The notes beneath the pieces are model-generated. The model searched no databases and was not told the DNA's origin. It worked only from the letters and a program-made list of their open reading frames with translations. Both the position numbers and the translations under genes were made by a program. Positions 11,686 to 16,090 of a stretch of DNA of 53,710 nucleotides are shown here, piece after piece (position 1 is the stretch's first letter; each line of letters opens with the position of its first letter). This DNA is from an uncultured Clostridia bacterium (GTDB taxonomy: Bacteria; Bacillota; Clostridia; Lachnospirales; CAG-274). The stretch is taken from assembly GCA_944381435.1 (NCBI GenBank), contig CALWLD010000016.1, positions 1 to 53,710 on the forward strand, given 5' to 3'.

Positions 11686-13725
11686 ATGAACACTGAATGG
11701 AAAGATTTTGTTGGTGGTAGTTGGCAAAAAGAGGTTAATGTAAGGGATTTTATCCAAAGAAATTACACACCTTATGAAGGTGATGATACCTTCTTAGCAG
11801 GCCCTACAAAAAACACAACAGAACTTTGGGCTCAAGTTATGGAGCTTACTAAACAAGAAAGAGAAGCAGGCGGCGTTTTAGATATGGATACAAAAATCGT
11901 ATCTACTATCACATCACACGGTGCAGGCTATTTAGATAAAGATAAAGAAACAATCGTTGGTTTCCAAACAGATAAACCTTTCAAACGTTCTTTACAACCT
12001 TATGGTGGTATAAGAATGGCAGAAAGCTCTTGCGAAGCTTATGGTTATAAAGTAGACCCAGAAATTAGTGAGTTTTTCACTGTTCACAGAAAAACACACA
12101 ACGCTGGTGTTTTCGATGCTTATACAGATGAAATGAAAGCTTGCCGTTCTAGCAAAGTTATCACAGGTCTTCCAGATGCTTATGGCCGTGGCCGTATCAT
12201 TGGTGACTACAGAAGAGTTGCTTTATATGGCGTAGATAGACTTATCGAAGATAAACAGGCTCAAAAACGTTCTACAGGCGGTATAATGACATCAGATATT
12301 ATCCGTGATAGAGAAGAATTATCAGAACAAATTAGAGCTTTAGGCGAGCTTAAAAAATTAGGCGAAATTTATGGCTTTGATATTTCAAGACCAGCAAGCG
12401 ATGTTAAAGAAGCTATCCAATGGATGTATTTAGGCTATTTAGCAGCTATCAAAGAACAAAACGGTGCTGCTATGTCTTTAGGTAGAACATCTACATTCAT
12501 TGATATATATGCAGAAAGAGACTTAAAAGCAGGTAAATACACAGAAGAGCAAATCCAAGAATTTGTTGACCATTTCATTATGAAATTAAGACTTGTTAAA
12601 TTTGCTCGTACACCAGAATATAACCAATTATTCTCAGGCGACCCTACTTGGGTTACAGAATCTATCGGTGGTGTTGGCTTAGATGGCAGACCTCTTGTTA
12701 CAAAAATGTCTTTCAGATATTTACACACTCTTAACAACTTAGGTACTGCTCCAGAACCAAACTTAACAGTTTTATGGTCTGTAAGATTACCAGAAGGCTT
12801 TAAAAGATTCTGTGCAAAAACATCTATCACATCATCTTCTATCCAATATGAAAATGATGACCTTATGAGAGTAACTCACGGTGATGACTATGCAATCGCT
12901 TGTTGTGTATCATCAATGAGAGTTGGTAAAGAAATGCAGTTCTTTGGTGCTCGTGCTAACCTTGCTAAATGTTTACTTTACGCTATCAACGGCGGTGTAG
13001 ACGAAGTTAAGAAAAACCAAGTAGGTCCTAAATTTAGACCTATTACAGATGAATACTTAACTTATGACGAAGTTATGCCAAGATACAAAGATATGATGAA
13101 ATGGCTTGCAGGTGTTTATGTAAACACATTAAATGTTATCCATTATATGCACGATAAATATTGTTATGAAAAATTACAAATGGCTTTACACGATAGACAC
13201 GTTACTCGTTGGTTTGCAACAGGTATAGCTGGTTTATCAGTTGTTGCAGACTCTTTATCTGCTATCAAATATGCTAAAGTTAAAGCTATAAGAGATGAAA
13301 ACGGTATCGCTGTAGACTACGAAGTAGAAGGCGATTTCCCTAAATATGGTAACAACGATGATAGAGTAGATAGCATTGCTGTTGAAATCGTTCATACATT
13401 TATGGAATATGTAAGAATGAACCAAACTTACAGAAATGGTATCCCTACAACATCTATCTTAACAATTACATCAAACGTTGTTTATGGTAAAGCTACAGGT
13501 TCTACACCTTGCGGTAGAAAAGCAGGTGAACCTTTTGCTCCAGGTGCAAACCCAATGCACGGCCGTGATAGCCACGGTGCTGTTGCAAGCTTAGCTTCTG
13601 TTGCTAAATTACCATTTATGGATGCACAAGATGGTATATCTAACACATTCTCTATTATACCAGGTGCTCTTGGTAAAGAAGACCAAGTTTTCGTTGGCGA
13701 TTTAGAGGTAGAGCTTGACAAATAA
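11686..13725 (+). CDS. pflB: Pyruvate formate-lyase core subunit lacking the glycyl radical domain
   Basis: Converts pyruvate plus CoA to acetyl-CoA and formate, in the cytoplasm. The 679 residues match PFL from the N-terminus ([20 protein letters not shown]) to the region before the radical domain ([19 protein letters not shown]), then end with two stop codons (TAATAA). The catalytic pair Cys406-Cys407 is intact (AIACCVSSM). The ~80 residues with the radical-bearing glycine are missing here and are encoded separately at 14033-14278; 679+81 equals the usual ~760. It is therefore inactive by itself. Codon use is richer in C than its neighbours, as in highly expressed genes. SD AGGGGTGA precedes the ATG. 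Activated by PflA encoded at 14281. Confidence 0.95.
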
Positions 13726-13745
13726 TAACCTAAGAAGGTGATATT

Positions 13746-13946
13746 TTGGAAAGTGATAAAAGAATAGACGATATCATTGCTATGCTTGATGGGTTTACTT
13801 CTAACAATGGGGGTCATATAAACATTGAGGTAAATGGCGAAGATATTAATAAAAAAATAGATACAGCTAACAGTTTAGACTGTTGTGCAGGCAATATGGC
13901 TTGTAGAGTGCCTACTCTTTTTGAAGGCATAGAAGATAATAATTAA
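13746..13946 (+). CDS. Short companion protein resembling the PFL linker without glycyl radical loop
   Basis: A 66-residue protein starting at TTG, 6 nt after SD AAGAAGGTG. Residues 6-29 (RIDDIIAMLDGF, then NNGGHINIEV) clearly match residues 8-31 of the radical-domain protein encoded next ([12 protein letters not shown], then [10 protein letters not shown]). The similarity stops there: the [12 protein letters not shown] radical loop is absent. Instead the tail has Cys46, Cys47 and Cys53 (LDCCAGNMACRVP) and an acidic end. It is placed between the core and radical-domain genes in the same direction, with a good SD, so it is likely made. A docking decoy, chaperone or radical-protecting factor is possible; the function is inferred only from position and partial homology. 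Confidence 0.8.
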   Translation: MESDKRIDDIIAMLDGFTSNNGGHINIEVNGEDINKKIDTANSLDCCAGNMACRVPTLFEGIEDNN

Positions 13947-13964
13947 TTTGAAAAATTAAAAATT

Positions 13965-13989
13965 AGGGCTATAGAAAGCCTATAGCCCT
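13965..13989 (+). promoter_or_regulatory. Perfect 10-bp stem-loop between companion and radical-domain genes
   Basis: AGGGCTATAG (13965-13974), loop AAAGC, CTATAGCCCT (13980-13989), followed by TTTAAATAAAA. The U-run is weak, so it may be a partial terminator, or a processing/stability structure that sets the amount of radical-domain mRNA independently of the core. Confidence 0.7.
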
Positions 13990-14032
13990 TTAAATAAAAA
14001 TATTATTTTTGTATAAATAGGAGGAATTTATT

Positions 14033-14278
14033 ATGACAAATGTAAACAACCAACAAGTAGACAATTTAGTAGCAATGTTAGACGGATATGCAGAGCAAGG
14101 TGGCCATCACCTTAACGTTAATGTTTTCACTAAAGAAACATTATTAGATGCTCAAGCTCACCCTGAAAAATATCCACAATTAACTATCCGTGTTTCTGGT
14201 TATGCTGTAAACTTTAACAAACTTACTAAAGAACAACAAGACGACGTAATCAGCAGAACATTCCACCAAGCAATGTAA
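14033..14278 (+). CDS. Separate glycyl radical subunit of pyruvate formate-lyase (GrcA-like)
   Basis: An 81-residue protein equal to the C-terminal domain of [23 protein letters not shown], then [19 protein letters not shown] and the C-terminal helix [17 protein letters not shown]. Gly56 in RVSGYA is the radical site. E. coli GrcA (YfiD) is a stand-alone copy of this domain that rescues PFL after the backbone is cut; here it is not a spare, because the adjacent core has no such domain. A strong SD (AGGAGGAATTTATT) precedes the ATG. pflA begins 2 nt after the stop, so activase and its substrate domain are translationally linked. Must associate with the core (11686-13725) to make active enzyme. 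Confidence 0.93.
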
Positions 14279-14280
14279 TT

Positions 14281-15039
14281 ATGGAAGGCTATATTCATTC
14301 TACAGAAAGCTTTGGTACGGTAGATGGCCCTGGTGTTAGGTTTGTAGTTTTTACACAAGGTTGCCCTCTACGTTGCCTTTATTGCCATAATCCAGATACC
14401 TGGGAGGTAAACAAAGGTACAAAAATGACTGCAGAAGAAATCTTAGCCAAGTATGATTTAACAAAAAGTTATTATAAAGATGGAGGGCTTACCGTTACTG
14501 GCGGTGAGCCTCTTCTACAAATAGACTTTGTAACAGAGCTTTTTGAAAAGGCAAAAGCCAAAGATATTCATACTTGCCTAGATACATCTGGCATTGTTTT
14601 TGACAAAGATAACGAAAAAATAATAGAAAAAATGGACAAGCTTTTATCTGTTACCGATTTAATTCTTTTAGATATTAAGCATATAAACAACGAAGAGCAT
14701 AAAAAGCTATGTGCTGTTCCTAACACACATATTTTACAATTTGCTAAATATTTAAGCGATAAAGAGCAACCTGTTTGGATAAGACACGTTGTTGTAGATG
14801 GTTATACTTTCAACGAAGAATATTTATATGAGCTTGGGCTTTTTATAGGCGAGCTTAAAAATGTTAAAGCTTTAGATGTGCTTCCTTATCACGAAATGGG
14901 TGAAGTAAAATATAAAAACCTTGGCATAGAATATCCTTTAAAAGGTATGCCTGCTCTTAAAAAAGAAGATGCTGTTAAAGCTAGAGAAACCATCTTAAAA
15001 GGTATTAAAGATAAAAGAAATGAGCTAAATAATAAATAA
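14281..15039 (+). CDS. pflA: Pyruvate formate-lyase activating enzyme (radical SAM)
   Basis: A 252-residue radical SAM enzyme that abstracts hydrogen from the PFL glycine. The [4Fe-4S] motif Cys28-x3-Cys32-x2-Cys35 lies in GCPLRCLYCHNPDTW, with GGL(T)VTGGEPLLQ for SAM binding, and the N-terminal STESFGTVDGPGVRFVVF typical of PflA. Full length. The ATG is 2 nt after the radical-subunit stop with no strong SD, suggesting translational coupling. It should act on the separate 81-residue protein, free or bound to the core. Confidence 0.96.
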   Translation: MEGYIHSTESFGTVDGPGVRFVVFTQGCPLRCLYCHNPDTWEVNKGTKMTAEEILAKYDLTKSYYKDGGLTVTGGEPLLQIDFVTELFEKAKAKDIHTCLDTSGIVFDKDNEKIIEKMDKLLSVTDLILLDIKHINNEEHKKLCAVPNTHILQFAKYLSDKEQPVWIRHVVVDGYTFNEEYLYELGLFIGELKNVKALDVLPYHEMGEVKYKNLGIEYPLKGMPALKKEDAVKARETILKGIKDKRNELNNK

Positions 15040-15145: not shown

Positions 15146-16090
15146 ATGAAAAATATACTTAAAAAAACAAAACATATCCCACTGCCTATAGTGCCTTGTA
15201 TGTTAGGAGCTTGTACATTATCTAATGTATATAATAGTTTAGGGTTTAGCTTTATAAAGCATTTAACAACCTTTTTAGCAATTATTGTAGTTATTTCCTA
15301 TATAGCAAAAATTGTAATCCACCCTAGCGTTATAAAAGAAGAATATAAAAACCCTAGCATATCTAGCTTATATCCTGGTATATGTATGGTATTAATGGTT
15401 ATAGGTGCTTATATTTATGATTATTTTAGCCCTATAGGCAAAATAATATGGGAAATATCAATTATCCTCCATATTATACACATTTTCTTATTTACCTATT
15501 TACATTTTATAAAATCAAGAGATATAAATACCTTTTTGCCAACTTGGTTTGTTACTTACAATGGTATAATGGTTAGTAGCGTAGTTGGGTCTAATATGAA
15601 TGAAAATAAGCTTTTAACCTTTATCGTTTATTATGGCATAATAATTTATTTGTTGTTACTTCCTATTATGGTTTGGCGTCTTATAAAATTTGAAATAAAA
15701 GATACAATGCAACACGGAACAGCCATACTTTTAGGCCCTTGTAGCCTTTGCGTTGTATCTTATATAAATATAATAGATAACCCTAATATGATTTTAACTT
15801 GGTTGTTATATATTTTAGTATTAGCCTCTCTTTTATATATTTTAATTATGCTACCTAAGTTTTTCTCTTATGCCTTTACACCTGCTTTTGCAGGGCTTAC
15901 CTTCCCTATGGCTATAGGTACAGTTGCCACGCAAAAAATGTCTATTTATCTAGCTAACACAGGCTATAGCAACATATCAAGCATACTCACCCAGCTAGAA
16001 GGAATACAAATATACATTACAACTGCTATTATAGGCTTTGTATTGTTTAATTTTGCAAGGCTTTTAAGGTTGCACTTTACAAAATTATGA
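15146..16090 (+). CDS. TDT/SLAC1-family anion channel or transporter (TehA-like)
   Basis: A 314-residue membrane protein with about ten hydrophobic helices and the family features IPLPIVPCMLGACTLSNVY at the start, HGTAILLGPCSLCVVSYIN and FPMAIGTVATQKM. The family covers TehA, plant SLAC1 and fungal Mae1, which pass anions such as chloride, nitrate, malate or other acids. SD AAGGAGG precedes the ATG. It lies about 106 nt downstream of pflA on the same strand, so it may move formate or another fermentation acid; this is inference from position. A dedicated FocA formate channel is not seen here. Confidence 0.78.
   Translation: MKNILKKTKHIPLPIVPCMLGACTLSNVYNSLGFSFIKHLTTFLAIIVVISYIAKIVIHPSVIKEEYKNPSISSLYPGICMVLMVIGAYIYDYFSPIGKIIWEISIILHIIHIFLFTYLHFIKSRDINTFLPTWFVTYNGIMVSSVVGSNMNENKLLTFIVYYGIIIYLLLLPIMVWRLIKFEIKDTMQHGTAILLGPCSLCVVSYINIIDNPNMILTWLLYILVLASLLYILIMLPKFFSYAFTPAFAGLTFPMAIGTVATQKMSIYLANTGYSNISSILTQLEGIQIYITTAIIGFVLFNFARLLRLHFTKL

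Follow-up and report, generated by a model that had tools for sequence, protein, structure and literature searches.

A pyruvate formate-lyase with a separately encoded glycyl radical domain and a small cysteine module, from an uncultured Clostridia bacterium and its relatives

Pyruvate formate-lyase (PFL) holds a central place in anaerobic fermentation. In the 53,710-nucleotide stretch analysed here (the window; contig CALWLD010000016.1 of an uncultured Clostridia bacterium, GenBank assembly GCA_944381435.1), it is encoded in pieces: a truncated catalytic core, a small third protein that we call mid, a stand-alone glycyl radical protein of the family GrcA3, and the activating enzyme PflA (Table 1). 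With 1113.5 bits, the core lies above the TIGR01255 cut-off of 994.2, yet it matches only positions 2-670 of the 744 in that profile; the 81-residue radical protein reaches 169.9 bits against NF038360 (cut-off 158) and the pflA product 298.7 bits against TIGR02493 (cut-off 231.75). The glycyl radical loop is not in the core chain, and is supplied by the separate 81-residue gene. The core aligns to residues 9-682 of Escherichia coli PFL, and the radical protein to residues 683-759 of the same enzyme (1h16) and to YfiD (6owr); the two genes thus tile one enzyme. The locus resembles that of a conventional PFL (PflB, TIGR01255) in that a core above cut-off, a catalytic cysteine pair, a glycine loop and a dedicated PflA are all encoded, and differs in its separate radical domain, in a C-terminal extension of the core, and in an added cysteine module. 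The catalytic ACCVS motif was found in 133 of 137 cores (the remaining four are cut by contig ends), and the glycine of the radical site is invariant in all nine aligned GrcA3 rows.

Table 1. Features of the split pyruvate formate-lyase locus, in window coordinates.
Feature	Position	Strand	Remarks
Truncated PFL catalytic core	11686-13725	+	679 residues, no glycine loop; TIGR01255 match and E. coli PFL alignment
Active-site cysteine pair Cys406-Cys407	12901-12906	+	Equivalent to E. coli Cys418-Cys419; stretch aligned to E. coli PFL for the relative L128
Mid, the third protein	13746-13946	+	66 residues, TTG start after AAGAAGGTGA; no glycine loop
Hairpin between mid and GrcA3 gene	13965-13989	.	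10 pairs; strand unassigned
GrcA3 glycyl radical subunit	14033-14278	+	81 residues, equivalent to E. coli PFL 683-759
Gly56 codon GGT, RVSGYA motif	14198-14200	+	Equivalent to E. coli Gly734
PflA, radical S-adenosylmethionine activating enzyme	14281-15039	+	Starts 2 nt after the GrcA3 gene

An earlier note on this DNA had described a two-protein enzyme, and its coordinates, lengths, Gly56, separate Shine-Dalgarno (SD) sites and 307-bp distance between the two genes were all correct on re-check. Its view that the core ends exactly where the radical domain begins, and that the parts sum to a normal PFL, holds in part: the two do tile the E. coli enzyme. However, the core still matches positions 1-51 of the Pfam Gly_radical domain, so that the break falls inside the domain, and the total of 760 residues is partly coincidence, owing to this break and to the short C-terminal extension of the core, which is found in none of the 22 ordinary PFLs compared. 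The note had also passed over the conserved third gene, mid, which lies within the 307-bp gap.

The genome from which the window derives is 98.8% complete in 38 contigs, and a profile search of it returned a single match to PF02901, the core itself. Three matches to PF01228 correspond to the radical protein, to the core, and to a weak third (23.9 bits) in a 720-residue frame at C2, which is taken to be a putative anaerobic ribonucleotide reductase. No full-length PFL was found in this genome at that completeness, which bears out the proposal that the stand-alone radical domain, unlike that of E. coli GrcA, is the only copy. Because it is the only one found, the radical protein should be an obligate part of the enzyme rather than a spare for a full-length one. 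The TAA stop and the same split recur in all eight genomes of the genus examined, that of the window included. A sequencing error that, once corrected, would join the frames is ruled out by this identity of the split throughout the genus. Likewise, re-coding of the stop was rejected, given that the core ends in TAA in 20 of 20 parsed cores (four loci were unparsed). The radical open reading frame (ORF) lies in a frame other than that of the core in 14 of these loci, including the window; the remaining six have it downstream of the stop without a change of frame.

Split enzymes proved to form a widespread clade rather than an oddity of one organism, and the small protein had already been named GrcA3 by NCBIfam. 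A survey of 392 genomes from the order, themselves a sample of a larger group, gave 73 with GrcA3 above the cut-off, three of them in fused frames. Apparent fused enzymes in G014, G026 and G032 (frames of 771-803 residues) contain stops, separate ATGs and SD sites, and were therefore assigned as split. Among the matches listed, 79 genomes of the order carry a stand-alone GrcA3 frame, and when these were searched with TIGR01255 at E 1e-100, 75 contained exactly one PFL, in truncated form. The remaining four comprise G347 and G371, each with an extra full-length PFL, G165, with two PFL pieces at contig ends, and G104, with no TIGR01255 match. A scan of named genomes, confined to the best 80 of 578 relatives, revealed a core without the glycine directly upstream of a stand-alone radical gene in 79 loci; seven of these cores are cut at their other end by contig ends, and the L164 pair represents a second copy, the matched gene itself having less than 1 kb upstream. 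In the one exception (L172) no core was present in the locus. Named members include Lachnoclostridium phytofermentans, Lacrimispora amygdalina, Lachnotalea glycerini and Claveliimonas bilis, with Blautia sp. An81, Ruminococcus bicirculans and Beduini massiliensis as further examples, and Olsenella uli and Lancefieldella rimae among Actinomycetota. In a survey of 398 genomes of the phylum GrcA3 exceeded the cut-off in only two (G000 and G063), which implies that split enzymes cluster in certain families. Two short, unannotated phage records from human faeces (MT838895.1 and MT838692.1) also contain GrcA3-like genes, which share about 80% identity with the window gene and may represent bacterial DNA in phage collections.

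The stand-alone glycyl radical domain is shared with GrcA/YfiD/Y06I (TIGR04365), and NF038360, under the name "autonomous glycyl radical cofactor GrcA3", already covers the window protein. The available text of PMC8683613 describes YfiD as rescuing a cleaved full-length PFL, with a disordered N-terminal half. Homology to YfiD and the family name both favour the view that GrcA3 is an ordinary spare part which, like the E. coli protein, restores a full-length PFL cleaved by oxygen, as do four genomes (L228, L235, L236 and L245) that harbor a second stand-alone GrcA3 gene in addition to a split PFL; the 4.5 kb around each such gene is free of PFL cores. We nevertheless consider this highly improbable. 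No full-length PFL to rescue was found, either here or in the 75 genomes with a single truncated enzyme (G347 and G371 do have one), and the core itself is without the glycine. The window protein is 81 residues long. The second GrcA3 genes can be read as probable spares of a detachable subunit. In E. coli the separate radical protein works with a PFL that has no intact radical domain, according to the portions available of PMC12338860 and PMC8683613. There it acts in rescue, whereas here it is the only way we see for the enzyme to work. Taken together, the sequences indicate that the only PFL found in this genome is very probably a multi-chain enzyme with a detachable radical subunit.

The third component of the system is a small cysteine module, which occurs either as the separate mid protein or as a tail on the core. 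Its distribution was assessed in 130 split loci, consisting of the window, 23 loci L035-L057, 79 of the 80 named loci and 27 further ones, with mids found by profile search; L172 (no core) and L228, L230, L231, L233, L235, L236, L244 and L245 (no core, or core unparsed) stand outside this set. A mid gene adjoins the core in 74 of the 130, and every one of these 74 mids has at least two cysteines. A cysteine-bearing C-terminal tail without mid is found in 47 loci (for example FNGDCCEGGACDSPTLFEGLDRE in L128), both together in none, and neither beside the core in nine. Core tails contain zero, two or three cysteines, never one. Two of the nine (L232 of G375 and L243 of G352) have a mid gene at a distant locus, bringing the loci with a module to 123 of 130; L230 (G331), outside the set, similarly has its mid at a distance, at L231, and would be a tenth by placement. 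The distant mid genes in these three genomes adjoin a probable proB, a gene that from its start looks like one for glutamate 5-kinase. The same three genomes (L230/L231, L232/L233 and L243/L244) also show pflA located between core and GrcA3. Among the 22 ordinary PFLs none has a linker cysteine and none has mid. In an alignment of the window core with 24 of 31 tailed cores (A4), the catalytic cysteines are retained.

The complementary placing of mid and tail was put to two tests. Fisher's exact test gives p 1e-26, a value inflated by identical or near-identical rows (L037/L126, L160/L217, L169/L218), and a test on independent pairs is fairer. On the best core trees, which omit seven of the 130 for their cut cores, at least 14 exchanges between tail and mid states are needed, about six of them on well-supported branches; independent pairs drawn on those branches changed in opposite ways in 5.9 of 6 cases on average, and no pair was concordant (median p 0.031, range 0.031-0.125). 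A profile of the mid cysteine motif recognised 23 of the 47 cysteine tails at 5 bits or more, and 0 of 83 cysteine-free tails; at 5 bits the controls yielded 4 of 940 shuffled sequences and a single hit among 363 other C-termini, which is a mid in its own right.

A core tree of 67 rows, picked from 150 and built by a quick method as was the other core tree, placed all 37 sampled module-bearing cores (24 with mid, 13 with tail) in one clade, with Shimodaira-Hasegawa-like approximate likelihood ratio test (SH-aLRT) support of 99. Also in the clade are the module-free L044 and, in two places, five re-fused, single-chain PFLs, so that the tree demands at least two returns to one chain; one of the re-fused enzymes, L206 (G373), has kept three linker cysteines. 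Two plain splits without a module (L180 and L186) fall outside the clade, which suggests that splitting may have occurred more than once.

The mid protein appears to be built from a piece of the radical domain. Its N-terminus resembles the start of GrcA3 (KRIDDIIAMLDGFTSNNGGHINIEV; NF038360 positions 2-32, E 2.5e-4), and a mid profile matches GrcA3 genes at 4e-6 to 1e-3; it has LDCCAGNMACRVPTLFEGIEDNN at the place of the glycine loop, and hence consists of a helix-strand copy of the radical-domain N-terminus followed, in the window, by cysteines at positions 46, 47 and 53. Two cysteines and a PTL motif are invariant in an alignment of 16 of 21 mids (A1). In a broader, 40-row alignment across families (A3; the window and 39 of 41 mids from named loci, excluding L168 and L183), the proline and one cysteine show no variation and the other cysteine almost none; there are two to four cysteines per mid, three in that of the window. 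Pairwise changes among the eight genus members number 308, 193 and 634 at codon positions 1, 2 and 3, respectively (28 pairs, which are not independent), an excess at the third position such as is expected for a protein under selection. An AlphaFold2 model of mid has a mean predicted local distance difference test (pLDDT) of 61.8, best for helix 2-19 and strand 24-29, with the cysteine part in the 50s. No match to this model was obtained in a fold search (best E 3), and the mid profile searched against solved structures gave a best E of 0.13, apparently through chance matches of cysteines.

These features bear on three other accounts of the module. One holds that mid is a degenerating copy of the radical domain and that neutral drift produced the split. 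Its being a partial copy and the returns to one chain are in keeping with this; we find it very hard to credit, since all 74 mids keep two or more cysteines, changes are concentrated at the third codon position, mid genes persist at distant loci in three genomes, and mid and tail are complementary. A second account regards mid or tail as a dummy of the radical domain that fills, as placeholder or inhibitor, the vacant site of a core lacking GrcA3 or that of the second protomer in the dimer, its cysteines serving only to stabilise the fold. The match of the N-terminal half of mid to GrcA3, combined with the missing glycine loop, is what would be expected of such a protein. Set against it are the 47 loci that have a cysteine tail and no mid, implying that the helix-strand copy is dispensable while the cysteines are kept; moreover, half-site reactivity of PFL is disputed in the accessible part of PMC12338860. 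We regard this account as doubtful, if deserving of attention. Thirdly, the cysteines may bind a metal or cluster. Small cysteine-containing partners of glycyl radical enzymes are known in benzylsuccinate synthase (its beta and gamma subunits) and hydroxyphenylacetate decarboxylase, accessory subunits of 7-10 kDa that bind [4Fe-4S] according to the text available of PMC12590467; mid differs in its small number of cysteines and in a segment of radical-domain homology. Tails have two or three cysteines and mids two to four, spaced from CxC to Cx8C, so that most could bind a cluster only at a shared site; the window mid, with three, has fewer than the four cysteines per chain taken as needed for [4Fe-4S], a number that a few relatives would reach. 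Metal binding thus seems distinctly unlikely.

In the established mechanism of PFL, the glycyl radical made by PflA abstracts hydrogen from the second of the two catalytic cysteines. For the split enzyme we infer that the core would hold the substrate site and the Cys406-Cys407 pair, that GrcA3 would dock at the position of the C-terminal domain of an ordinary PFL, and that PflA would make the radical on Gly56, which would in turn take a hydrogen atom from Cys407. Oxygen would then destroy the 81-residue subunit only, and a fresh one could replace it, a cheap repair after oxidative damage such as the earlier note had envisaged. Mid would dock at or near the place of GrcA3, as its helix-strand segment resembles the radical domain. 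Without GrcA3 the Cys406-Cys407 pair, ordinarily buried, would be exposed, and our guess as to the chemistry is that the module might serve as a dithiol arm, either reducing or shielding the pair. In class I ribonucleotide reductase a C-terminal cysteine tail serves the active site; that system is likewise a radical enzyme with an active-site cysteine pair and a flexible C-terminal cysteine pair, a likeness of analogy and not of homology. The tentative dithiol arm would fit the complementary placing of mid and tail, as well as the idea, discussed in the available sections of PMC12590467 with regard to another glycyl radical enzyme, that idle radicals are quenched as a form of protection. Put together, these steps would form a repair cycle throughout a PFL clade common in gut anaerobes, in which the radical subunit is consumable and the core permanent, with the arm keeping the cysteine pair usable or quenching stray radicals; we give this full scheme a probability of roughly one in three.

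Several observations weigh against that scheme. The re-fused enzymes L207-L210 have a linker devoid of cysteines. No cysteine module was seen in seven of the 130 loci, a count that reaches beyond the locus only for G014, whose genome was searched for mid and none found; the module may therefore be dispensable. Fewer than half of the cysteine tails (the 23 of 47) are recognised by the mid motif, and many, of the CACCEP and CGCC types, share little with mid but cysteines, so that homology is not shown for these. Finally, the AlphaFold2 model of a core with its tail is poor (mean 62.3, with residues 583-702 below 50) and does not place the arm; given the low confidence of both this model and that of mid, structural prediction lends the arm no support.

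Evidence that split enzymes are active is indirect and weak. All five Atopobiaceae loci in our set are split. Fannyhessea (Atopobium) vaginae belongs to this family, and its PFL may be split as well. This species secretes formate, and hypophosphite, an inhibitor of PFL, cuts the secretion by about 90% with little effect on growth, according to the portion available of PMC12208373. The closest solved relatives of the window core are PDB entries 38la and 38lb ("Formate acetyltransferase"; 1165.6 and 1155.6 bits). Both are truncated cores; the truncation of 38la may be natural or engineered, and the 38lb chain closes with a cysteine tail resembling the one on the core of Lancefieldella rimae (Atopobiaceae). 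No chain of either entry matches GrcA3, as 34 PDB chains do, or the mid profile, and neither entry is among the 50 matches listed from a fold library ending 8 April 2026. These truncated cores suggest that others may be at work on split PFLs.

In the available text of PMC12590467 (October 2025) most glycyl radical enzymes, PFL included, are called homodimers of a single polypeptide, and further accessory subunits are said perhaps to await discovery. Among the titles and abstracts listed from the open-licence PubMed Central literature none describes a split PFL or the cysteine module, and no paper there was found to mention GrcA3, which is not proof of absence; split PFL is likewise unmentioned in the accessible parts of PMC12288474, PMC9403272, PMC7478625, PMC11528403 and PMC13252398. 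The conserved cysteine-pair component seems to be undescribed. Should the multi-chain organisation apply to many Lachnospiraceae, Ruminococcus, some Erysipelotrichaceae and Atopobiaceae, accounts of PFL architecture and of its death by oxygen would have to admit a second case, it would be misleading to annotate the radical subunit as a spare, and "pflB" expressed alone from such bacteria should be a dead enzyme. A standing question, by what means the radical of a glycyl radical enzyme is set apart, protected and replaced, would become testable.

Two neighbouring features may relate to expression and export. Directly after pflA lies a gene for a SLAC1/TehA-type anion channel (15146-16090; PF03595, E 3.5e-23), a possible formate exporter; in L037 a different ORF is seen within the 0.8 kb after pflA. 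The intergenic stretch between mid and the GrcA3 gene has a predicted folding energy of -17.8 kcal/mol, with a terminator-like pattern on the minus strand only, and a similar hairpin is present in three of the seven other genus members. It is a possible site of processing or attenuation, and could set unequal amounts of core and mid relative to GrcA3 and PflA.

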